In this document: positions 47,925 to 62,212 of the stretch, piece by piece
How positions within the stretch are numbered: the stretch's first letter is position 1
How the letters are laid out: every line of letters begins with the position of its first letter
Assembly (NCBI GenBank): GCA_007693585.1
Contig: REDH01000196.1
Span: 1 to 64,000, forward strand
DNA from: Deltaproteobacteria bacterium
GTDB lineage: Bacteria; Myxococcota_A; Bradymonadia; REDH01
Direction of reading: 5' to 3'
DNA: 64,000 bases
Program-made: the position numbers and the translations under genes
Notes under the pieces: generated by a model
Seen by the model: only the letters and a program-made list of their open reading frames with translations
The model's database searches: none
What the model was told of the DNA's origin: nothing

Positions 47925-50900
47925 TCAACTGCCGCGATCCTCGTCCCAGGACTCGAGCATCCGCCGGCCCAGCCCTCGATGACCGAAGACCACGACCTTC
48001 GACCGCGCCCGGGTGAGGGTCACGTTCATCCGCCGACGATCGAAGACGAAGTCGTTCCACTCACGGGTCACCAGACTCACCAGCATCGCCTCCTTCTCCC
48101 GCCCCTGGAACCGCTCCACCGTATCCACCTCGATGCGCCGCGCCAGGTCCCGACCCAGACGCTCCTGCAGCGCCGCACGGATCGCGTGGCACTGGGCACG
48201 AAAGGGCGCCACGACGCCGATCCAGTCGTCGGGGCACCCTGTTTCCGCGCGGGACAGCGAGGCCAGCGCCACGGCCGTCTCCACAACCGCCTCCACCTCG
48301 TCCCGGTTGCAGTGTCCGTCTTCGTCTCCCCCCGGATCCACCCAGACCAGCGGACGCTCCGGGTCGAGCCGGCGACGAAGCTCTCCGGACAGCGACTCCA
48401 GCGCATCCCTGGACACGGGAAGCCGGCGTTCGGCGACCCCCCCGGCGGGCCGAAGCCGACCCTCGTAGAACAGCCGACTTGGCACCGCCTGCACCCCATC
48501 GTTCATCCGGTATTGCTCCTCCAGCATCACCCCGGGGAGAAAGGGCCGCAACCGCTCGAAGAGCGATCGTTCCAGACCCGACACCCCCGCCTCTCGCAGC
48601 TCCTCGGGCACCTCCGACCGCACCGCCGTGGAGAGCGCGTCCGCGGCCGACACCACGGGCGGCAACTGACAGTCGTCGCCGACCAGGATGAACCGCCGCC
48701 CGCGCAGGAGAGCCCCTACCGCGAGCGGCTCCGTCAACTGGCTGGCCTCGTCCACGATCACCACGTCGAACAACGGTGCCGTCCCGTGTGGCGCGCCGTC
48801 GGTCTCCGCGCCCCGCTCGAGAATGTCGAACACCACGTGGCGAACGCAAGCGTGTGTGGTCGCCGCCACCACCGGAACATCCCGAAGCCGCCCCGAGAGA
48901 CGCCCCAGCGAAGCGGCCCGTCGCGCCAGCGTATCCGAAAAGTGCGTTTCCGGCTCACGGCCGGCTCCCTCCAGCGCCGCCACGAGCTCCCGCCCCGCGG
49001 ACACCGCATGCCCCACCCGCAGCACGTCCGTGACCCCGGCCAACACCACCCGGGCGAGCATCGTGTCCACCGCCGTATTCGTGTGCGCAGCCAGCAGCAC
49101 GCGCTTGCCACGGGCCACCAGCCGTCGAACCAGCTCGGCGATCACCGTCGTCTTCCCCGTTCCCGGCGGCCCCTGAATCAGGAACCCACGCTCCGCCTCC
49201 AGTGCCCGCTCGATGGCTGCCTCTTGCCGGGCGTTCAGCCCGCCCGCGTGGGCCATCTCCGCCGATCCCAGCGAGTCGTCCCGCTCGCGCTCCAGCAGCG
49301 AGATCTGTCCCAGGCGCTCGTGAACATGAGGCCGGACGAGCAGGTCGAGCAGCCCACGCTGCGGGGACAGCAACGCACGGTACAGGGCCACGTGCATGTC
49401 GCGGAACCCGATGCGAGCCGGCTCGCGCTCGAGGAACCAGCCTTGCTCGGGCAGCAGTTCCACAAGCCCCGCTCCGTCTCCTGCGAGCGTCACCAGGGTC
49501 CCGGAGACCTCCCGGACGATCCCGTGCAGCGTCGGCGCATCGTCCACCGCCCCCCGGTGCGCCAGCAGACGGTCTCCCTCGTGCACCCGGGCCAGCCGAG
49601 GTACCCGGAACACCACGCGCGAACGCTCCGCATCCACGGAGATCACTTCCGCCCCCTCCACCGCATCCCCCGCGCCCACGCGATCAGCGAGTGACTCCGG
49701 CCGCAACAGCCGGCCCATCGCCATCGACGCCGCCCGATACTCCCGCTCGATCAGACGCACGAAGTGGAAGTACCAGGCCCGGGCCGCCCGGATCAGGGGC
49801 GCCGGCGTGTCCCCCCACATCTCCGACGACGCCCCCAGCTCTCCTGCCGTACCACACTGGCTGCCCAGCACCGCCGTCTGCCGCCGGCACTCGTCCCGCA
49901 GCCATCGACAGGGCGCGTCGCTGCACAGCTCCGGCTGCTGCATCCACGAGGGCGGCCGGTACGAGGTATCCGAATCCGAAAAGTGTCGGTGAAGGGCCAC
50001 GATGTCGTTGCGCGCCGCGAGCACCCGCCGCTCCTCGGCGTGGGATCCGCGGCGCAGGGACTTCTCCCGTCCAGTCTTCGAGTACAGCAGGGTACCCTCG
50101 ACGTGCCGCCCGAGGGCCTGCGCCGCTTCGTCCCACAGCAGCGTGTAGCACCTCAGCTGCTGTTCGTGCTCCGTCGTCTCGCGACGGCCGGTCTTGAGCT
50201 CGACGATGTGAAGCCGCTGTTCGTCCACCAGGGCCAGGTCGATCCGGCCCTCGAGGCCGTATCGCCCCGAGAGCCTTCTGGCCTCCGCCGCTCTTGCTCC
50301 CGCCGCGCGCGCCCGCTCCGTCCAGGGCGCGAGAAACGTGAAGTGCGCGTGCATCCGGTCACGCAACTCCGGCAGGTCCACATCGCCGAACCCGGCCGCC
50401 AGCAGCTCCAGCCTGCTCTCGGCCAGGGCGCGCTCGAAGGCCGTGCCGAAGTCCGGTCGCTCGCTCCCGGTCCCCAGCATCAGGTGTTCCAGGATCCGGT
50501 GCGCGAGAGAACCCTCGACCAGATAGTGCTCCCGAGCCCGGGGCTCCCTCATGGCGACCAGCAACCGGGTCGCGCACGGCGCCGCCCGCACCCCGTCCAC
50601 CCGCGCCACCTCCGTCACGGACACGGGAAAGCCGGGCTCGATCACCGGTACCGTCTCGCCGTCCGCCAGCACGAACCCCTCGCCGCTCCGCGTCAGCGCC
50701 CGCCCCCCGAACAGGCTCACCTCCGCCCCCTCCCACAGGCGCGACAGCGTGTCGTGGGTCCGCCGGTCCGCCGGCGAGCCCGTCGCCCAGGCGAACACGC
50801 CCATCGCCGGGGCCGCGGGCGCCTCGCCGTCCACCGCGCGCAGGCGAACGCACTCGCCCCGCTCGGGATGCACGATGCGCTCGACGTCCCGGACCACCGC

Positions 50901-51818
50901 CTCCCGAAGGTCCGTGCGCGTGTCGTGTGCCCTCACCCGCGCCGCACCTGCCATGCTCGTCGCTGCCAGCTTCCACACGATGCGTCGCAGCTCCTCGGCG
51001 ACCTGCTCCGCCGTCCGCGGCCGATCGAAGGGATCGGTCGAGAGACAGCGCTGCACAAGCTCCCGCAGGGGCTCGGGAAACGATTCCGGAAACTCGAACG
51101 ATCCCGCCAACTGACGGCGCACCGTCGCGAACAGCCCAGGCGCGCTGAACGGTCCCTCCCCCGCGAACACCGCGAAGATAGTCGCCCCGAGGCTGTAGAG
51201 ATCCGCCCGATGGTCACAGGTCAGCCCGTCCCCGTCGAGCAGCTCCGGCGCGAGGTATCCCGGCGTCCCCACGCGTTGCGTTGCCCCGCGCTCCGACTGC
51301 AGCATCCACGACAGGCCGAAGTCCACCACCCGGGCCCGCCCCCCCTCCTCCACCAGGATGTTGTGCGGCTTGAGGTCGCGATGGACCACACCACGCTCGT
51401 GCGCATGGCCCAGCCCGTCGGCCACCGCGATCAACAACCGCACCGTCTCCGTCACCCGCGCGAGGGCCACCGCGCCCATCCGCATCGACAGCGGCTCGCC
51501 ATCCACATGCTCCATGGCGAGCCACGGGTGCGGGGAACACCCGTGGTGATAGACCGTCACGACGTTCGGGTGATTCAGCCGGCACAGCGCCCGCAGTTCC
51601 GCCTGGACACGGCGGGGCTCCACATCGTCGTGAAAGACCTTGAGGGCCACCTTTCGAAGCGCGACCGGATCTCCGTCCCCTTCCCGCGACAGCTCCTCGA
51701 ACACGGCCCCGCTGCCCAGCTCCTCGGCGAGGTATACCACCCCGTATCCCCCGCGGCCGAGCTCCCGCAGGATCCGGAAGCGGTCGGACAGGAAGTGGAC
51801 ATCTGCAGGCTCGGGCAT
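47925..51818 (-). CDS. Ser/Thr kinase - Fe-S PD-(D/E)XK nuclease - SF1 helicase fusion
   Basis: 1297 residues. Residues about 12-285 form a complete protein kinase: GRGGYG (21-26), Lys60 (VALK), HRDLKPHN (146-153), DFG (166-168), APE (190-192). Residues about 400-650 carry a RecB/Cas4/Dna2-type nuclease: Cys415, His440, Asp527 (GRIDLAL), Glu540 and Lys542 (VELK), the Q-x3-Y motif (Gln554, Tyr558), and Cys632, Cys637, Cys644, which with Cys415 could bind a 4Fe-4S cluster. Residues about 860-1285 form an SF1 (Upf1/Dna2-like) helicase: GPPGTGKT (883-890), DEAS (1023-1026), EQYR, VDTVERFQGREKE and NVTLTRAR. The last two parts resemble Dna2. The ATG at 51818 has GGAGG 11 bases upstream; a TTG six bases earlier is better spaced. 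DNA repair or defence is inferred. Divergent from slt. Confidence 0.9.
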   Translation of the reverse strand: MPEPADVHFLSDRFRILRELGRGGYGVVYLAEELGSGAVFEELSREGDGDPVALRKVALKVFHDDVEPRRVQAELRALCRLNHPNVVTVYHHGCSPHPWLAMEHVDGEPLSMRMGAVALARVTETVRLLIAVADGLGHAHERGVVHRDLKPHNILVEEGGRARVVDFGLSWMLQSERGATQRVGTPGYLAPELLDGDGLTCDHRADLYSLGATIFAVFAGEGPFSAPGLFATVRRQLAGSFEFPESFPEPLRELVQRCLSTDPFDRPRTAEQVAEELRRIVWKLAATSMAGAARVRAHDTRTDLREAVVRDVERIVHPERGECVRLRAVDGEAPAAPAMGVFAWATGSPADRRTHDTLSRLWEGAEVSLFGGRALTRSGEGFVLADGETVPVIEPGFPVSVTEVARVDGVRAAPCATRLLVAMREPRAREHYLVEGSLAHRILEHLMLGTGSERPDFGTAFERALAESRLELLAAGFGDVDLPELRDRMHAHFTFLAPWTERARAAGARAAEARRLSGRYGLEGRIDLALVDEQRLHIVELKTGRRETTEHEQQLRCYTLLWDEAAQALGRHVEGTLLYSKTGREKSLRRGSHAEERRVLAARNDIVALHRHFSDSDTSYRPPSWMQQPELCSDAPCRWLRDECRRQTAVLGSQCGTAGELGASSEMWGDTPAPLIRAARAWYFHFVRLIEREYRAASMAMGRLLRPESLADRVGAGDAVEGAEVISVDAERSRVVFRVPRLARVHEGDRLLAHRGAVDDAPTLHGIVREVSGTLVTLAGDGAGLVELLPEQGWFLEREPARIGFRDMHVALYRALLSPQRGLLDLLVRPHVHERLGQISLLERERDDSLGSAEMAHAGGLNARQEAAIERALEAERGFLIQGPPGTGKTTVIAELVRRLVARGKRVLLAAHTNTAVDTMLARVVLAGVTDVLRVGHAVSAGRELVAALEGAGREPETHFSDTLARRAASLGRLSGRLRDVPVVAATTHACVRHVVFDILERGAETDGAPHGTAPLFDVVIVDEASQLTEPLAVGALLRGRRFILVGDDCQLPPVVSAADALSTAVRSEVPEELREAGVSGLERSLFERLRPFLPGVMLEEQYRMNDGVQAVPSRLFYEGRLRPAGGVAERRLPVSRDALESLSGELRRRLDPERPLVWVDPGGDEDGHCNRDEVEAVVETAVALASLSRAETGCPDDWIGVVAPFRAQCHAIRAALQERLGRDLARRIEVDTVERFQGREKEAMLVSLVTREWNDFVFDRRRMNVTLTRARSKVVVFGHRGLGRRMLESWDEDRGS

Positions 51819-51890
51819 CGGCAAGGGAACCTCCGCGAACGGAATGTCGGTGGATTGCGAGCGCGACTGCCGAGGAATCGGTCCGTCGGC

Positions 51891-51919
51891 GACCGCGTTG
51901 CGGTCACACCCCCTTTTTT
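51891..51919 (+). terminator. Hairpin followed by a T-run in the kinase-helicase leader
   Basis: GACCGC (51891-51896) and GCGGTC (51900-51905) form a six-pair stem, followed after eight bases by six T (51914-51919). Oriented plus, it would stop transcripts antisense to the kinase-helicase gene before slt. The spacer before the T-run is long, so this is weak. Confidence 0.25.
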
Positions 51920-51946
51920 GCACGCCGACCCGCTCCCCGGTAGAGA
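51918..51946 (+). promoter_or_regulatory. Candidate promoter of the lytic transglycosylase gene
   Basis: TTGCAC (51918-51923), 17-base spacer, TAGAGA (51941-51946), 59 bases before the ATG. It directly follows the hairpin and T-run. Confidence 0.35.
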
Positions 51947-52005
51947 AAAGGTGGGTGCAGCACCGCGCGGCACCGCGCCACACTCCTGCCTCCCGTCCCG
52001 AATCC

Positions 52006-54324
52006 ATGTTCCGAAGCGCTCTCCTGCTCCTCGCCGTGTCGCTCATCCTGGCCGTCCTTCCCACCCGGGACGCGACGGGTGAGCCGCAGCTCCGGAGGCT
52101 CTCCCGTGAACCCGGGGCGGCGGCCGGTCCCCCTGGCGTTCGCCTCGAAGCGCTCACACCGCTCCATGACGATGCCAGCCTGCGCCGCGCCCTCGCGGAC
52201 TTCGACCGTGGCCGCACACAACGTGCCGTGGACGCCTTCACCCCGCGCATCGACGACGCGCCCGAACGCGCCGAGCGCCAGCGCGCCCTCTTCCTGGTGG
52301 GATGGGGCCTCGCCGAAGCCGAGCGCCACGAGGAAGCCCTCGAGATCCTGACCCGCTGTGTCGAGGACGCGCCGCTCTTTGCGGACTACTGCGCGTGGAG
52401 AGCGGCCGAGGCCACCGAGGCGCTCGAACGCTTCGCCGAGGCCGAAGCCTGGGCGCGGATGGTGCGCCCGGACGCCGTCTTCGGCCCAAGGGCCCGCTAT
52501 CTCCGGGGACGGGTCACCGCCGCCCTGCAACGCCACGAGGAGGCCGTCCGGATCTTCCTCGACTTCCTGGGCGACCATCCGAACGCCTTCTATCGGACCG
52601 AGCTGGAGTTCGACCTCATCTCCTCCCTGCTTGCCATCGAGGACATCGACGAGGCCGCGCTGGCCCTCCACCGGGTCATCGTCAACAATCCCGGCACACC
52701 GCATGAGACCCGTGCGCAGCGCATTCTCGGCGGCATCCAGGCCGGACTGTCCAGCGACGTCACGAGCCGGATCGCCCCCTCGTCCCATGAGGACCGGATT
52801 CGGCGAGCCGAGGTGCTTTACGGCCGACACCGCAGCGAGCAGGTGATCGAGCTGCTCATGCCGGTTCACGGGAGCGAGGGAACCCGAACCGGCGCAGGCT
52901 GCCGGGCCACCTGGCTCATCGCGCGGTCCTGGTCGAAGCTTCGGCGACACGCCAACGCCGCCCCCTTCTATGACGAGATCGTCGGTCAGTGCGACGAGGA
53001 GCTGACGCTACGAGCACTGTACAACGGTGGACGCGCCTGGTGGAACGCGGGCGAGCGCGACCGGGCATTCGACACCTTTCAGCGCATCTGGACCGAGCAC
53101 CCCGAGCACTCGTTCTCCGATGATGCCAAGCTCTTCGCGGCCCGCATCCGACGCTCCCAGGGGCGGGAGGACGAGGCGGTCCGCATCCTCGAGGCCCAGA
53201 TCGCCGCCTACCCCGACGGCGACATGTTCAAGGATGCCGTCTGGCTCCTCATGGCACGGCACATGCTCGCCGGCGAGTACAGACAGGCCGTTCGCTTCGC
53301 AGAGGGAGTCGCCAGCCACACCGGGGAGGACGATCTGTACTCGCGGGGCCGGATCGCATACTTCCAGGGGCGCGCCCTCGAGCGGCTGAGCCTGCATCGC
53401 GAGGCGCGCAGCACCTACACGCAGGTCCTGCGGGATCACCCGATGGGCTACTACAGCCTCCTGGCTCTCAATCGCCTCAAGCGCCTCGAACCGGAGCATG
53501 CGAGAGGACTCGTCGCGGAGCTCCGACGGGACTCCCCCCGGACGGAGGGATTCATCCAGCTCGCTCCGGCGCTCGCCCACGACGACGCCTTCCGCCTCGG
53601 GCGCGAGTTCCTCCGCATGGAGCTTCCGACCTTTGCCCAGCGGGAGTTCAACCGGCTGCAGTCCGCCCACCCCAACGACACGGAGCTCGGCTGGGCGATC
53701 TCGCTGTTCTTCCATCACGCGGGCATCCACCACATCTCCCACAACGTGCCCGGATCCCGCACCGGCCTCAATCTCGCCTACCCGGCCGCGAGCAACCGGG
53801 AACGCTGGGAGGTCGCCTACCCACGCCCCTGGTGGGACGAGGTCCAGGACGCCGCCCGCGAACGGGGACTGGATCCCCACCTGATCTACGCCATCATGCG
53901 CGAGGAGAGCGGCTTCCGTGCCCAGGTGGAGAGCTGGGCAAACGCACTCGGGCTGCTGCAGCTGATGCTTCCGACCGCCAACGACATGGCACGACTCACC
54001 GGCCGCGGCTCCGTCACGCGACAACAGCTCCTCGACCCGGCGATCAACATCGAGCTCGGCACCATGTTCATGCGAACCCTCGCCGACCGATACGATGACC
54101 ACCCCGGACTCGTCATCGCGGGCTACAATGGCGGGACCGGCAATGTCGGCAACTGGCTGCGCGAGCGCGGCGACATGGACTTCGATCTCTGGGTCGAGGA
54201 GATTCCCTTTGGCCAGACCCGCAACTACGTGAAGCGGGTGTCCATGACCTACTGGGTCTACCGCTGGCTATACGACGAGCATGAACCATGGCTGGACATG
54301 CCGGACCGGCTCCCCTCGCGCTGA
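52006..54324 (+). CDS. Slt70-like soluble lytic murein transglycosylase
   Basis: 772 residues. A signal peptide (about 1-24) is followed by a long superhelical region of TPR-like pairs (about 60-600), the U-shaped ring typical of Slt70, and the C-terminal SLT domain (about 605-770). The catalytic glutamate lies in MREESGF (Glu634), followed by NALGLLQLM and the AGYNGG loop (705-710) and YVKRV. It cleaves peptidoglycan to 1,6-anhydro products in the periplasm. The TPR part is longer than in E. coli Slt. The methyltransferase gene follows after 26 bases on the same strand. Confidence 0.9.
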   Translation: MFRSALLLLAVSLILAVLPTRDATGEPQLRRLSREPGAAAGPPGVRLEALTPLHDDASLRRALADFDRGRTQRAVDAFTPRIDDAPERAERQRALFLVGWGLAEAERHEEALEILTRCVEDAPLFADYCAWRAAEATEALERFAEAEAWARMVRPDAVFGPRARYLRGRVTAALQRHEEAVRIFLDFLGDHPNAFYRTELEFDLISSLLAIEDIDEAALALHRVIVNNPGTPHETRAQRILGGIQAGLSSDVTSRIAPSSHEDRIRRAEVLYGRHRSEQVIELLMPVHGSEGTRTGAGCRATWLIARSWSKLRRHANAAPFYDEIVGQCDEELTLRALYNGGRAWWNAGERDRAFDTFQRIWTEHPEHSFSDDAKLFAARIRRSQGREDEAVRILEAQIAAYPDGDMFKDAVWLLMARHMLAGEYRQAVRFAEGVASHTGEDDLYSRGRIAYFQGRALERLSLHREARSTYTQVLRDHPMGYYSLLALNRLKRLEPEHARGLVAELRRDSPRTEGFIQLAPALAHDDAFRLGREFLRMELPTFAQREFNRLQSAHPNDTELGWAISLFFHHAGIHHISHNVPGSRTGLNLAYPAASNRERWEVAYPRPWWDEVQDAARERGLDPHLIYAIMREESGFRAQVESWANALGLLQLMLPTANDMARLTGRGSVTRQQLLDPAINIELGTMFMRTLADRYDDHPGLVIAGYNGGTGNVGNWLRERGDMDFDLWVEEIPFGQTRNYVKRVSMTYWVYRWLYDEHEPWLDMPDRLPSR

Positions 54325-54350
54325 ACGGCCTCGAACCACAAGCACAGTCC

Positions 54351-56222
54351 ATGTCCGTCCACGCCTCCCTGCGCGTGCTGCTGCACCGTGATCATCCCCG
54401 CCGACGGGACGGCATCCACCTCGAGGCCCACCGGCGCCGGGAAGAGCTCGATCCGATGATCGACGCGACCGCAGTGCACCTCCACGACGCTTCCCGCCAG
54501 GACCCGACGCTGCCGGTGGATCGCCTGCTCGCGGAGATCGTTCGCTCCCTGGCGAAACCCCCTGCACACCTGCCCGGGCCCGGAGGGCTCCTGCGGCAGG
54601 TTCCCGGCACACTCCCCGCCCCACCCCGCCAGCTCGTCCGAACGGTGACGCTGGCGGTGGGCCCCTCGGCGGAGCTCGACCAGCCAGTCCTGCGGCTTCT
54701 TCTCGATCCGGGTGGCCCGACCGCACCGGAGCTCCGCGCGGACGGTGAGTGTGCCTGCGCGAGGGTTCGTCCCCCGAGGGGTGGCTCGCGCCCGCTCGCG
54801 CGCACGCTCGTCCAGGGGCTGGCGGCGGTGTTTCCAGGCATGACGAGCCTCGAGGAGGAGCTCGTCACGGAGCTGCAGGCCGCCATCGAGGGCGATGATC
54901 TCGTCGATGTCCCTCCTGCCGTGCCGACACTGGAGGAGCGACTCGACGGCCTACTGCACGCCCAGCTCCTTCCGCTCGACGCCACTGCGGCGCGAGCCGA
55001 GACCAGGCGTCTGTTCCTGATGTCCGTGCGCGCTCATCTTCGTCCGGTGCTGATGGAGAGAGGAAGACTGGATGAGGTCACCCGGGCGCTGCGCAGGCCC
55101 GCCATCGCGAGTCGGGCGATCCAGCCTCTGCGCGGTGTGCATGTCATCTGCGCCGACAACGTTGCGGCCATCAGTGCGCTGCGAGCCGAAGGCACGGCCT
55201 TTGACGTCGCCCTTCTCGACCCCCCCTACAACACGGGCAACCGGTCACGGCCGTATGATGATGCCCATGAAACGAGCACGTGGCTGACGGGAATCGAGTA
55301 TGTGATCCAGTCCCTGGAAGCGCTGCTGCACGAGCGGGGCAAGTGCTTCACTCACATCGATGACCACCATGTCAGCGACGTCCGGCTGATCTTTCGGGAA
55401 CGAGGATGGCACGAGCTTGCGTGTGTCGTGGTGAAGATGAGCGAACTGTCGGGGGTCAAGATGACCCATGCCGCGACAAGGCTCCCTCGGCTCAAGGAGT
55501 ACGTCCTCGCGCAGGGGCGCTCCCCGCGCGCCGAGCTCCACGTCCCTCGCATCCCCAAGGAGCGCGAGACCCTTCGGCGCTATGCCGCATACTACACGCG
55601 CATCGTTCGCAACCCCGAGGACCCACCGGAGCGCTGGATCCTGCAGCCGGTCCGGGAGGCGATGGCCGAGGAAGGTCTGGATCCCGGAGACGAGGACGCG
55701 CTGCTGGACTATCGCATCCGGCACGCCGACCGGGTCGTCTACCGGACGAACAACCGGACGATAGCCGCATGGCGGACGCGGCACCCCGACGCCCCGCCCA
55801 TCTGCCGCGTCACCTCCCCCGATGGCCGGAGCTGGATCGCGTGGGGCGACCGAGAGCTGCTGGTGCTGTCGCGCTTTCTGGACGCACCGCTCGGCGATCT
55901 CTGGCTCGACATCTCCACGATCAACCTTCGACGCGAGCTCCTCGGGCTCCCGGTCTACCGGGGAGGACAGAAGCCCATCGCACTCACACACCGTCTCCTG
56001 GACCTCCTGCCCGACAACCCGCTCCGCGTTCTGGACCCCTGGGCCGGCTCCGGCACCACCGGACACGCGGTGCTCGATGTCCTCGCCGGTGGCCGCGAGG
56101 CGTCTGCCGTGCTCGTGGAGGTGATCCCGGATGTCGCCGCGCGCTGCACCGAGCGCCTGCGACGTGCTGCCGCCGCGCATGACTTGCCGGCGAACGTGGT
56201 GCAATTCACCCGCCTCGGCTGA
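54351..56222 (+). CDS. Beta-class DNA methyltransferase (type III Mod-like) with unusual N-terminal region
   Basis: 623 residues. The methylase core spans about 260-623: motif IV is DPPYNTG (290-296), consistent with N6-adenine (or N4-cytosine) methylation, and the SAM site is DPWAGSGTTG (562-571), preceded by KPIALTHRLL. Motif IV before motif I makes it beta class, like type III Mod subunits. The insert between them (about 370-540) probably recognises DNA. Residues 1-255 are Arg/Leu/Pro/Ala-rich and match nothing I know. No Res or other restriction subunit is in the window, so it may be an orphan. ATG 54351 was chosen; ATG 54288 would overlap slt. Confidence 0.85.
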   Translation: MSVHASLRVLLHRDHPRRRDGIHLEAHRRREELDPMIDATAVHLHDASRQDPTLPVDRLLAEIVRSLAKPPAHLPGPGGLLRQVPGTLPAPPRQLVRTVTLAVGPSAELDQPVLRLLLDPGGPTAPELRADGECACARVRPPRGGSRPLARTLVQGLAAVFPGMTSLEEELVTELQAAIEGDDLVDVPPAVPTLEERLDGLLHAQLLPLDATAARAETRRLFLMSVRAHLRPVLMERGRLDEVTRALRRPAIASRAIQPLRGVHVICADNVAAISALRAEGTAFDVALLDPPYNTGNRSRPYDDAHETSTWLTGIEYVIQSLEALLHERGKCFTHIDDHHVSDVRLIFRERGWHELACVVVKMSELSGVKMTHAATRLPRLKEYVLAQGRSPRAELHVPRIPKERETLRRYAAYYTRIVRNPEDPPERWILQPVREAMAEEGLDPGDEDALLDYRIRHADRVVYRTNNRTIAAWRTRHPDAPPICRVTSPDGRSWIAWGDRELLVLSRFLDAPLGDLWLDISTINLRRELLGLPVYRGGQKPIALTHRLLDLLPDNPLRVLDPWAGSGTTGHAVLDVLAGGREASAVLVEVIPDVAARCTERLRRAAAAHDLPANVVQFTRLG

Positions 56223-56306
56223 ACCCGCACAACTTGACCCTGACGTCCGGGCGTCGCTAGCTGTCATTCGGCGAGCCGAACGAACCACTTCAGGATGGAG
56301 GAGGCC

Positions 56307-58217
56307 ATGGCGACCGGATGGAGAGGGATGCACACACTGGGCGTGATGGGCCTCCTGGCCACGACGGTGTTCGGGGGCACGGCGTCCGCGGGCGAGCAGG
56401 CAGGAGAGCCCGCATGGGGGGTGGAGGGTGCGCCCACGTCGACCGGGGTTTCCGGGCTGAACCGGGTTCCCACGGCCACCGGTATCGACGCCGGTCAGGT
56501 CGCGTTCGGCGTCCACGGCAGTTTCTTCCGGGGCTCGGACGCCGTGCGCCGGGGGGACGAGACGCGCCGGAACACCGGATCCTTCACGCTGAGCATTCGC
56601 CCCCTCGAGGAGCTCGAGGTCTTCGCCTCGCTCTCCTCCCGCGCCGTGCGCAACAGCTTCGCCAACCCCGAGCTGATGCAGAGCACGGGCAACCTCGGCC
56701 TGGGATCCCGGGGAGGAGTCGAGGTGTTCGACGGGCTGCACGTGGGCGGAATGCTCGCCTTCGACTTCCCGGCGGGTGCGGAGAGCGTGGGCATCGCCTT
56801 CGACAGCTCGACCATCACGCTGCTCGCGATGGGCACGGCGGACCTGCGCACCCTCGTGGACGAGACCGTTCCCGTCCGGGCTCACCTCGCCACCGGGCCC
56901 GTGATCGACAACACGAGGAACCTGTTCGCGCAGGAGCTCACGCGCCCGGAGCGGTTCGGACAGGACGTCACCGCCTACAGCCGCTGGCGACTCGGCCTCG
57001 GCGTCGACGCGCCGCTGCCCTGGGTCACACCGTACGTCGAGTGGGTGCTCGACATTCCGATCAACCCGCCCTGCTCCAACACCCTCACGGTTCGGTGCGT
57101 GGGAGACAGCGGCTTCGCCGCCTTCCCCTCGTTCGTGACCCTCGGGGCCCGGGGCACGCCCATGGTGGAGGGTCTCGTGCTCCACACCGGGGTCGAGCTG
57201 GGCATGACCACCAACGAGTCCCAGGGCACCCCGGCGATTCCGGCATGGAACTGGATCTTCGGTGCATCGTGGGCCTTTGACGCCATCGGCCCGGCCGCGT
57301 CGCGCGAGCGCGGAGCGCCCACGGAGCGCGCTTCGCGCGGCGCCGAGTTGGCCTCCGTGTCCGGGCGCGTGGTGGACAGCCATACCGGCGAGTCCCTCGC
57401 CGGGGTGCGCGTCCGCTGGGCGGATCAGTCGTGGTCGGACCAGGTCGTCGATGACGCGGGGCGGTTCCTCTCGGCGCCGGTTCTCGTCGGCACGGAGGCG
57501 GCCATCGAGTTCTCGCGGGAGGGCTACGAGACGCGCACCGAGCGGTTCCGTGTGCCCGCCGAGGGGCTGGCCCTCGACATCGCGATGGACGAAGCCATCG
57601 AAGGTGCGCGCTTCGCGGGCACGGTGACGCTCGAGCAGGGCACGGCCGAGGCCGCACGCCTTCACGCCGTGCGGCCGGGCGAGCACGAGGAGATCGCCGT
57701 CACCGCCGACGGGCACTTCGAGGCCGACCTCGAGCCGGGCACGTGGCTGCTGTACGTGACCGCGCCCGGACACCGGACGGTCCGTCAGCGTCAGCCCCTC
57801 GAGGCCGGTCGACAGGAGGCCGCATTCGATCTCCCGCTGCTCGAGCCGGGAGAGCCGCGCCTCCTCCCCGACCGTCTCCTGTTCGACGACCCGATCGACG
57901 AGGTCGTGTTCGACGGAGAGTCCCTCGATCCCGGCTCCATGGACGCCATCGCACGGATCGCGACCCTCCTGGACGCCACACGGGGGCTTCGACTCCAGGT
58001 GCGCACCCACACCGACGACAGGGAGGACGAAGAAGAGGAGCGGCGACTGACCGAAGCGCGCGCGCAGGCCGTCCTCGACGCATTGCTCGCAGCCGGGGTC
58101 CAGGAGGGCCGCGTGACCTCCGAGGCGGTGGGTGCAGCCGAGCCGCTCGTTCCGAACCTCAACGAGCGCAACCGTGCCCGCAACAACCGGGTGGAGTTCG
58201 TCGTCATCGGCCCCTGA
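56307..58217 (+). CDS. OmpA-family outer-membrane protein with carboxypeptidase-regulatory-like domain
   Basis: 636 residues. Signal peptide with ASA/GE cleavage (after residue 28). A barrel-like region (about 45-325) of alternating strands is followed by Ig-like carboxypeptidase-regulatory repeats (about 345-490; SGRVVDSHTGESLAGVRV and FAGTVTLEQG) and a C-terminal OmpA/Pal-type peptidoglycan-binding domain (about 505-636). The latter has VRTHTDDREDEEEERRLTEARA and ends LNERNRARNNRVEFVV, giving the NxxL...D...R-type diaminopimelate site. It links the outer membrane to the cell wall. GGAGGAGG lies directly before the ATG at 56307 and decides this start over ATG 56295. Confidence 0.87.
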   Translation: MATGWRGMHTLGVMGLLATTVFGGTASAGEQAGEPAWGVEGAPTSTGVSGLNRVPTATGIDAGQVAFGVHGSFFRGSDAVRRGDETRRNTGSFTLSIRPLEELEVFASLSSRAVRNSFANPELMQSTGNLGLGSRGGVEVFDGLHVGGMLAFDFPAGAESVGIAFDSSTITLLAMGTADLRTLVDETVPVRAHLATGPVIDNTRNLFAQELTRPERFGQDVTAYSRWRLGLGVDAPLPWVTPYVEWVLDIPINPPCSNTLTVRCVGDSGFAAFPSFVTLGARGTPMVEGLVLHTGVELGMTTNESQGTPAIPAWNWIFGASWAFDAIGPAASRERGAPTERASRGAELASVSGRVVDSHTGESLAGVRVRWADQSWSDQVVDDAGRFLSAPVLVGTEAAIEFSREGYETRTERFRVPAEGLALDIAMDEAIEGARFAGTVTLEQGTAEAARLHAVRPGEHEEIAVTADGHFEADLEPGTWLLYVTAPGHRTVRQRQPLEAGRQEAAFDLPLLEPGEPRLLPDRLLFDDPIDEVVFDGESLDPGSMDAIARIATLLDATRGLRLQVRTHTDDREDEEEERRLTEARAQAVLDALLAAGVQEGRVTSEAVGAAEPLVPNLNERNRARNNRVEFVVIGP

Positions 58218-59345: not shown

Positions 59346-59447
59346 TACGCGCGCCGCGCCGGACGGGGGACTCGCTGCCTGCGGGAAGCGAGCGTTCGGC
59401 CTGCGGGGAAGATCGGTCCATCGCCCACTGCACGACGAGGAGTGCCC

Positions 59448-60854
59448 GTGTCCGCAAACCAGGTTGACGTAACCGTCATCGGCAGTGGCCCAGGGGGCTA
59501 CGTGGCTGCCATTCGCTGTGCCCAGCTCGGTCTGAAGACCGCGATCGTGGAGAAGGACGACCGGCTCGGCGGGACTTGTCTTCTCCGGGGCTGCATCCCC
59601 ACGAAGGCCCTGCTGGAGAGCGCTCATCTCTATGACAAGATGCAGAAGGCGAAGACCTGGGGCATCCGGGCGGACGGGGTGGACGTGGACTTCGCCGGCG
59701 TCCAGAAGTATCGCGGGAAGGTCGTGACGCAGAATTCGAAGGGCGTCGCGTTCCTGATGCGGAAGAACAGGATCGAGGTCCACCAGGGACACGGGCGCCT
59801 TGCGGGCAAGGGGCGCGTGACGGTGACCGCCGCGGATGGTTCGGTCACCGAGCTGCGCACGAAGCACGTGATCCTGGCGACGGGATCGGTGTGCAAGGAC
59901 CTCCCGTTCATCGAGATGGACCACCGGCGCACCATCAACTCGGACGACATCCTCGAGATCGACCGGATCCCGGAGCGCCTTATCGTGATGGGCGCCGGGG
60001 CGGTCGGCACGGAGTTCGCCAGCATCTACAATTCCTTCGGCTCGAAGACGACACTCGTCGAGTTTCAGGAACACATCCTGCCCATCGAGGACACGGACGT
60101 CTCGGTCGAGCTGGCCCGCGTGCTCGGCAAGCGCGGCATCGATGTTCGGACCGGAACGGCCATCAAGACCGTCGACTTCACAAGGGACGGCGTGAAGGTC
60201 ACCATGGAGAAGGACGGCCAGAGCGAGACGCTGGAGGCCGACGTCCTGCTCGTGGCGGTCGGGCGGGCCCCCGTGACCGGCGACCTCGGGCTCGACGGGA
60301 CGGGCGTGAAGCTCGATGATCGCGGTCAGGTCGAGGTCGACGATCACCTCCGCACGGGAGAGCCGAACGTCTGGGCGATCGGCGACATCATCGCGACGCC
60401 CTGGCTCGCGCACGTGGCCAGCCATGAGGGCGTGCTCGTGGCCGAGCAGATCGCGGGGAAGAAGGTTCACCCGTTCAACTACGACCACACGCCGAACTGC
60501 ACCTACTGCGACCCCGAAGTGGCTTCGGTGGGCCTCACCGAGCGGGAGGCGAAGAAGCGCGGGTACGATGTGAAGACCGGGGTGTTCCCCTTCAGCGCGA
60601 GCGGAAAGGCCCGGATCATGGGAGAGGACGCGGGCTTCATCAAGCTCGTGGCCGAGACGAAGTACGACCAGCTCCTCGGCGCCCACATCATCGGTCCCAA
60701 GGCCACCGAGCTGATCGCCGAGCTCGCGGTGGCGCTCCACCTGGAGTCGACCGTGGAAGAGATCTTCCACACCATCCATCCGCACCCGACCCTCTCCGAG
60801 GGCGTCGGCGAAGCTGCCGCCGCCGCCTTCCTCGGCGCTCCCATCCACTTCTGA
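59448..60854 (+). CDS. lpdA: Dihydrolipoyl dehydrogenase (E3)
   Basis: 468 residues. The FAD site is VIGSGPGGYVAA (10-21), the redox-active disulfide is in GGTCLLRGCIPTK (Cys44, Cys49), the NAD site is VMGAGAVGTEFASIY, and the interface acid/base is HPHPTLSE. It reoxidises dihydrolipoamide on E2 and reduces NAD+. GAGGAG lies five bases before GTG 59448; a GTG six bases earlier is also in frame but too close to that site. It is followed by the E2 gene after 11 bases, so the two are probably one operon. Confidence 0.95.
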   Translation: MSANQVDVTVIGSGPGGYVAAIRCAQLGLKTAIVEKDDRLGGTCLLRGCIPTKALLESAHLYDKMQKAKTWGIRADGVDVDFAGVQKYRGKVVTQNSKGVAFLMRKNRIEVHQGHGRLAGKGRVTVTAADGSVTELRTKHVILATGSVCKDLPFIEMDHRRTINSDDILEIDRIPERLIVMGAGAVGTEFASIYNSFGSKTTLVEFQEHILPIEDTDVSVELARVLGKRGIDVRTGTAIKTVDFTRDGVKVTMEKDGQSETLEADVLLVAVGRAPVTGDLGLDGTGVKLDDRGQVEVDDHLRTGEPNVWAIGDIIATPWLAHVASHEGVLVAEQIAGKKVHPFNYDHTPNCTYCDPEVASVGLTEREAKKRGYDVKTGVFPFSASGKARIMGEDAGFIKLVAETKYDQLLGAHIIGPKATELIAELAVALHLESTVEEIFHTIHPHPTLSEGVGEAAAAAFLGAPIHF

Positions 60855-60865
60855 CGAGGAACAGC

Positions 60866-62212
60866 ATGCGCGTCGAAGTCATCATGCCCCAGATGGGCGA
60901 GTCGATCGTCGAGGGAACCGTCGTCGAGTGGCTCAAGTCCGAAGGAGACACCGTGAAGCGGGACGAGGACATCTTCGTCCTGTCGACCGACAAGGTGGAC
61001 GCGGAGGTCCCGAGCCCAACCGACGGGGTGCTCGTGGAGATCCTCGCCCAGCCCGGGGATACCGTGGAGGTGGGCACCGTGGTCGCGTGGGTGGAGACGG
61101 ATGCTGCTGCTGCGAGCGCAGGACCGGCCCCCGCGGAGGAAGCGCCCGCGAAGAAGGAGACGCAGGCGAAGAAGGAGACGCAGGCGGCCGCGGCGCCGCC
61201 TGCGGGCGGGAAGAAGGACGCGCAGGGCGCCACTTCGGCAGCGAGCCCTCCCCGTCCGGAGAGCGCCGGAGCCTCGCGCGACGAGCTGCGCCGGGTCCGG
61301 TCGACTCCGCTCGTTCGTCGCATCGCCTCCGAGCATGGCATCGAGGACCTGACGGCCATCGAAGGCACCGGCATCAGCGGACGTGTCACGAAGAAGGACA
61401 TCCTCGCCTTCATCGAGAAGGGGGAACCAGCACCTTCCGCAGGCTCGCCCACCGCGCCGATCGATCGGGATGTCCCCAGCGGCTATCGCGTGGCGCTCGA
61501 GAAGGTTCCCCGGGTCCATGTCTACGACAGCGACCGTGTGGAACCCATGTCCCGCATGCGGAAGAGCATCGTGGAGAACATGCTGCAGGCCCGCCGCACG
61601 ACAGCGCACTGTCACACGGTGTGGGAGGCGGACGTCACGGGCATCGTCCGGGCGCGGCGATCCCTCCGGGACGAGTATGCCGCGCGAGGGGCAAGGCTCA
61701 CGTTCACGCCGTTCTTCGTGGCCGCGGTCGTGCAGGGCCTGCGCGAGTGGCCGCTGATGAACGCCGCCATCGACGGAGACAGCATCGTCTACCGCAGCCA
61801 GGTCAACATCGGCGTCGCCGCGGCGATCGACGAGGGACTGATCGTGCCGGTGGTCAAGGGGGCAGACGGCCTCAACCTTCTCGGCATCGCCAAGGCGGTC
61901 AACGATCTTGGCGAGAGGGCCCGCACGAAGTCGCTGAAGCCTGCGGACGTTGCGGACGGTACCTTCACGATCTCGAATGCAGGGGTCTTCGGCTCGCTGT
62001 TCGGCATTCCCATCCTCGTGCAGCCTCAGGTCGGGATCCTCGGCATCGGCGGCATCAAGAAGCGCGTGGCCGCCGACGACAACGACAACATCCGGGTGCG
62101 CTCGTTCGTGACCATGTGCCTGACGTTCGACCATCGACTGATCGATGGGGAGACCGCGGACGGGTTCATGCGGACAGTGACCCGCGCCCTGGAGTCGGCC
62201 TCGATGACCTGA
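60866..62212 (+). CDS. Dihydrolipoamide acyltransferase (E2)
   Basis: 448 residues. The lipoyl domain (about 1-77) has the modified lysine in STDKVDAE (Lys43). An Ala/Pro/Lys-rich hinge contains a short duplicated KKETQA segment. A peripheral-subunit-binding domain (about 144-180; RSTPLVRRIASEHGIE, GTGISGRVTKKDI) precedes the catalytic domain (about 225-448) with the active-site FDHRLIDG. The MPQMGESIVEGTVVEW start is typical of branched-chain and 2-oxoglutarate E2 rather than pyruvate E2, but the substrate is not certain. GAGGA lies five bases before the ATG. No E1 gene is adjacent. Confidence 0.93.
   Translation: MRVEVIMPQMGESIVEGTVVEWLKSEGDTVKRDEDIFVLSTDKVDAEVPSPTDGVLVEILAQPGDTVEVGTVVAWVETDAAAASAGPAPAEEAPAKKETQAKKETQAAAAPPAGGKKDAQGATSAASPPRPESAGASRDELRRVRSTPLVRRIASEHGIEDLTAIEGTGISGRVTKKDILAFIEKGEPAPSAGSPTAPIDRDVPSGYRVALEKVPRVHVYDSDRVEPMSRMRKSIVENMLQARRTTAHCHTVWEADVTGIVRARRSLRDEYAARGARLTFTPFFVAAVVQGLREWPLMNAAIDGDSIVYRSQVNIGVAAAIDEGLIVPVVKGADGLNLLGIAKAVNDLGERARTKSLKPADVADGTFTISNAGVFGSLFGIPILVQPQVGILGIGGIKKRVAADDNDNIRVRSFVTMCLTFDHRLIDGETADGFMRTVTRALESASMT

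Follow-up and report, generated by a model that had tools for sequence, protein, structure and literature searches.

We found that the window, as we call the whole 64,000-nucleotide stretch of DNA analysed here, encodes one polypeptide in which a Hanks-type Ser/Thr kinase domain is followed by what is predicted to be a complete Dna2. On balance, we think it probable that this protein is a Dna2-type nuclease-helicase, specific to its clade and inherited vertically, which would act on chromosomal DNA intermediates beside RecBCD and carries a built-in Ser/Thr kinase. The sequence and model data behind this explanation are the domain order, the complete Dna2 architecture, the intact catalytic residues in the window's family (f1), vertical inheritance, a housekeeping context and the decay of the kinase in the sister families (f5 and f7).

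Identification of the fusion gene

The open reading frame containing the gene spans 47925-52250 on the minus strand. Alignment with three orthologues from f1 favoured ATG 51818 as the start codon, and an in-frame TTG at 51824, closer to a GGAGG sequence, is also possible. An earlier note on this DNA had reported a kinase, a nuclease and a helicase in one polypeptide at 47925-51818. Its coordinates held, the residues that it named in the motifs of all three enzymes were reproduced when counted from 51818, and the three domains were borne out by motifs, orthologues and Pfam matches (Pkinase, E 2e-41; PDDEXK_1, E 2e-12; AAA_12, E 4e-37; AAA_11, E 6e-34); the strand, which it had not given, is minus (Table 1). 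The domain order was identical in 21 of 21 orthologues. As this order and the residues are invariant and the orthologue matches contain no stops, the fusion is the product of neither chance nor chimeric assembly. A promoter and terminator scan found nothing.

Table 1. Positions of the fusion gene, its domains and its conserved neighbours in the window
Feature	Position	Strand	Remarks
Kinase-Dna2 fusion gene, whole	47925..51818	minus	1297 aa; fusion shared by the orthologues
Hanks-type Ser/Thr kinase domain, aa ~15-273	51000..51776	minus	PF00069, E 2e-41
OB-like beta domain, aa ~301-393	50640..50918	minus	AlphaFold model; aligned with Dna2 as part of the whole; name inferred
Dna2/Cas4-type nuclease, aa ~401-647	49878..50618	minus	Residues invariant in aligned orthologues; profile matches Dna2
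Beta-barrel (1B-like) domain before the helicase, aa ~719-779	49482..49664	minus	AlphaFold model; structural match to Dna2
SF1B helicase, Upf1/IGHMBP2/Dna2 type, aa ~859-1281	47976..49244	minus	PF13086/PF13087; motifs
TPR-SLT lytic transglycosylase, divergent neighbour	52006..54324	plus	Conserved in the window's family; start estimated
OmpA-domain protein	56295..58217	plus	Belongs to the neighbourhood conserved in the family
lpdA and 2-oxo acid dehydrogenase E2 genes	59442..62212	plus	Same conserved neighbourhood

The part behind the kinase corresponds to Dna2

The nuclease of the window protein carries the residues C415, H440, D527, E540-x-K542, Q554-x3-Y558 and C632/C637/C644, and the helicase contains Walker A, DEAS and NVTLTRAR motifs. 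The nuclease, cysteine and core helicase residues were invariant in the 21 orthologues. In terms of sequence, the best PDB match of the helicase was Dna2 (E 4e-43). Dna2 was also matched by a profile built from the nuclease only (E 2.6e-15), with UvrD/AdnAB-type helicase-nucleases far behind. When residues 272-1297 were modelled with AlphaFold (pLDDT 83.5, pTM 0.86), the best PDB match was again Dna2 (E 7e-48, 1137 columns, TM 0.68), Ighmbp2 and Upf1 ranking clearly behind. Taking these structural and profile matches into account, the part behind the kinase is, as modelled, a complete Dna2 composed of an OB-like domain, a four-cysteine nuclease, a beta-barrel and an SF1B helicase. The original identification of the enzymes was thus right, and the nuclease profile and the structural match have sharpened it.

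The eukaryotic Dna2 structures (5EAN/5EAW/5EAX) share with the window protein an OB-like domain, a RecB-type nuclease with four cysteines, a barrel and an SF1B helicase in the same order. The window protein differs in the added N-terminal kinase, in its identity of only ~22-23% and in its cysteines. The sequence and fold features expected of a Dna2-family member were present: domain order and fold, and in the nuclease the D/ExK/QxxxY residues and four cysteines. Of these cysteines one is N-terminal and three are C-terminal, the latter spaced C-x4-C-x6-C, compared with C-x2-C-x5-C in Dna2, Cas4 and AddB. The arrangement as in Dna2/Cas4 that had been noticed previously stands for the one-plus-three placement, while the spacing is slightly wider.

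Among bacterial proteins, the DNA2-like Bad from Geobacillus contains an Fe-S cluster, cuts ssDNA as an endonuclease and works as a 5'-3' helicase (PMC7430649). By its description, Bad resembles the window protein in being a bacterial Fe-S nuclease fused to an SF1B helicase, but the word kinase is absent from the text of PMC7430649. By analogy with Dna2 and Bad, the window protein may contain an Fe-S cluster, translocate 5'-3' on DNA and cut flaps or ssDNA. We also noticed a 1149-residue protein on a plasmid of Thermomicrobium roseum (L175:1063-4512), with RecB-type nuclease-like motifs, a helicase that falls near the PLuB clade (see below) and no kinase. Judging from its sequence, it is a candidate kinase-free Dna2-like relative.

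The kinase is intact in the window's family and degraded in two sister families

The kinase domain of the window protein contains a G-loop, Lys60, HRD146-148, DFG166-168 and APE, and these motifs do not vary among the four family members that were aligned (the window protein and three f1 orthologues). The VAxK lysine, HRD, DFG and APE of active Hanks-type Ser/Thr kinases are thus all present in f1, as are Ser/Thr residues in the activation loop. The HRD aspartate has been lost in f7, and most of the catalytic motifs are gone in f5. Mean identities follow the same direction: 49.7% for the kinase versus 50.6% for the helicase in f1, 45.0% versus 60.4% in f7, and 35.8% versus 52.3% in f5. The f5 domain is nevertheless still homologous in a profile comparison (probability 98.6%) and is predicted to retain the kinase fold. 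As far as motifs can tell, only the window's family has a kinase with a full catalytic set, the two sister families having a degraded pseudokinase. The earlier note had named a degraded nuclease or kinase site as evidence against its proposal; degradation was found in the kinase of the f5 and f7 relatives, that of the window's own family being intact.

The decay of the kinase in the sister families, with nuclease and helicase sites remaining invariant, suggests that DNA processing is the constant task of these proteins. Kinase catalysis appears to be an extra that f1 uses. This bears on the possibility that the protein is primarily a DNA-damage signalling kinase, in which binding of flaps or ssDNA by the Dna2 part activates a kinase acting on other proteins. 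Such a role would suit the complete and strongly conserved f1 kinase with its activation-loop Ser/Thr residues, and Dna2-type parts do recognise ss/ds junctions (PMC7430649). On the other hand, it is the nuclease and helicase residues that are kept everywhere and the kinase catalytic residues that are lost in two of the three families, and no substrate or partner is conserved beside the fusion gene. We consider this role unlikely.

Kinase-fold domains on DNA2-type proteins have a precedent in the DLHK pseudokinases, which are linked to helicase/DNA2 domains in proteobacteria and in which the beta3 lysine is missing and the DFG degraded (PMC12599244). The window protein shares this combination of domains with DLHK, but both the lysine and the DFG of its kinase are intact.

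Distribution and inheritance of the fusion gene

Relatives were searched with the NF040671 model and a nuclease profile. The fusion gene, a single-copy gene, was confined to one class among the 284 genomes sampled from the phylum. Of these, 28 carried an orthologue (all six f1 genomes, 19 from f5 and three from f7), and the other 256 had none. The gene is not indispensable in the class, since the other families and some members of f7 lack it. A GTDB genome scan returned 18 loci, many of them contigs already met among the relatives. That scan looked for exact matches to conserved peptides and may have overlooked distant fusions, so that confinement to one class can be taken as firm for the phylum sample and not beyond it. 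Named matches such as Lujinxingia vulgaris suggest that the group belongs to a Bradymonadia-type lineage of Myxococcota, the class name being deduced from them.

In the nuclease-helicase tree, f1, f7 and f5 separate, and the branching within each largely matches that of the rpoB tree, which argues that the fusion gene is, as far as trees can tell, vertically inherited and lineage-specific. A mobile or viral origin was rejected, as no copy was found in plasmids, phages or IMG/VR, all three of which were searched. In the window and in three f1 relatives, the fusion gene lies divergent from a lytic transglycosylase gene, which is followed by the OmpA-like, lpdA and E2 genes. The other immediate neighbour in the window, a downstream GH31 gene, is not conserved. 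A Type III-like N6/N4 adenine methylase gene (54288-56222, plus strand; PF01555, DPPYN motif) is situated between the transglycosylase and OmpA-like genes; it is missing at the same place in the three relatives, and no restriction partner was seen for it.

The evidence speaks against a mobile anti-phage gene

The earlier note had left a choice between phospho-controlled DNA processing and phage defence. A defence effector would sense phage DNA with its helicase, signal through its kinase and destroy the DNA with its nuclease. Defence proteins do include kinases and Upf1-like helicases, both the kinase and the helicase parts of the window protein match the MkoA profile of PADLOC, and the fusion gene evolves faster than rpoB. 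The kinase matches in PADLOC are, however, generic: an ordinary kinase from a relative yielded the identical list, and a defence-specific kinase was rejected on this ground. Ten neighbours scanned in the relatives gave nothing apart from generic methylase- and kinase-domain matches. Neither the association with defence islands or mobile elements nor the patchy distribution expected of an anti-phage system was seen. On the contrary, the vertically inherited single-copy gene keeps to fixed housekeeping neighbourhoods, a context that the earlier note had itself set against its defence idea, and plasmid, phage and viral copies are lacking. By these features the fusion gene bears little resemblance to a mobile anti-phage gene, and we regard a defence function as fairly unlikely; phospho-controlled DNA processing is the half of the earlier proposal that remains the best idea.

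Among defence proteins, MkoA of Mokosh type I resembles the window protein in having an N-terminal kinase domain and a C-terminal Upf1-like helicase. The window protein could then be a Mokosh type I variant in which a PD-(D/E)XK nuclease takes the place of the PLD partner. The shared order of kinase, middle region and Upf1-like helicase and an MkoA profile score of 336 bits are in line with this. Nevertheless, the MkoA proteins found here lack a nuclease, the neighbours of the fusion gene (GH31 and SLT transglycosylase) include no adjacent PLD-family partner gene, and one relative (G002) has both genes. The helicase tree placed the window's group with IGHMBP2-type helicases that have no kinase, and a clade of PLuB and MkoA helicases was rejected (AU p 0.006 and 0.001). 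On the basis of this tree and the absence of a nuclease in MkoA, Mokosh membership was rejected, and we judge the variant highly improbable. As the clade with MkoA was rejected, the kinase fusion probably arose independently of MkoA, at least as far as the helicase sequences indicate. Kinase/Upf1-like-helicase fusions have thus probably arisen more than once, and profile matches alone do not suffice for a Mokosh or defence label.

True MkoA proteins occur patchily in the phylum. That of the f1 genome G002 (L159), which accompanies a kinase-Dna2 gene, has an intact-looking kinase and helicase and no nuclease. The MkoA-like proteins L154, L156, L157 and L158 from other genomes of the phylum have degraded kinase motifs, for example HRNLHPGS, and resemble the published DLHK pseudokinases.

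Possible action of the fusion enzyme

The genome of the window contains recD, recB and recC together on another contig (C204; recD-recB-recC operon, L150:52-11563). A replacement of RecBCD/AddAB by the fusion protein, an idea raised by the lone PDDEXK_1 match in the genome, was rejected on this account. The RecB nuclease falls below the PDDEXK_1 threshold, and counting PDDEXK_1 alone would wrongly suggest that RecB is absent.

In the DNA-processing explanation that we favour, the Dna2 part would process 5' flaps, ss/ds junctions or stalled forks next to the RecBCD of the same genome. The kinase probably phosphorylates the Dna2 part of its own molecule, or a close partner, so that the nuclease is restrained or released. 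The pseudokinases of the sister families would exert the same control allosterically. For the enzyme's substrate, its physiological role and the direction in which it is controlled, we give here what we infer. Eukaryotic Dna2 is regulated by separate kinases. Here the kinase resides within the same polypeptide, and phosphorylation within this one molecule may serve as the switch for its DNA processing.

A bolder form of this explanation, which we find distinctly unlikely, is a one-protein DNA-structure checkpoint. The Dna2 part would sense flaps, ssDNA or stalled forks and switch a kinase controlling both its own nuclease and other proteins, the kinase domain of the sister lineages being catalytically dead and acting allosterically. 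If true, a single enzyme would exist in nature in a graded set of forms, its kinase ranging from active to pseudokinase. Kinases with intact and dead active sites on otherwise invariant orthologues offer a clear test of whether catalysis or the fold is the regulator.

Relationship to the PLuB family

NF040671 (PLuB_AAA, 'PLuB system helicase-like protein') is orthologous to the window protein over residues 214-1426 of the long reading frame, with the same domain order. The window protein scores 809 bits against this model, below the 999-bit cut-off, and the NCBIfam family represents a sister branch. With these results the uninformative name PLuB_AAA gains a concrete enzyme identity. The myxosortase paper does not mention a PLuB system.

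In the f5 branch, with its degraded kinase, genes for a PQQ-repeat lipoprotein and the myxosortase MrtP (NF040673 and NF040674) directly follow the pseudokinase-Dna2 gene at nearly every locus, as in L026:5385-12083 and L025:5639-11848. This operon-like run speaks against a plain DNA-repair role, which does not explain it. Together with the orthology over most of the protein, it raises the possibility that the window protein belongs to the PLuB system and functions at the surface or envelope with the lipoprotein and MrtP. In the window's branch, however, unlike in f5, the kinase is intact and the lipoprotein/MrtP operon is absent. Applying the adjacency defined by the f5 operons, we found no lipoprotein gene in the window genome, and its MrtP is on another contig (C139). 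In addition, the score lies under the cut-off and MrtP occurs class-wide, also where the helicase gene is absent. Such membership seems very unlikely to us. The PQQ-repeat lipoprotein itself is restricted to f5.
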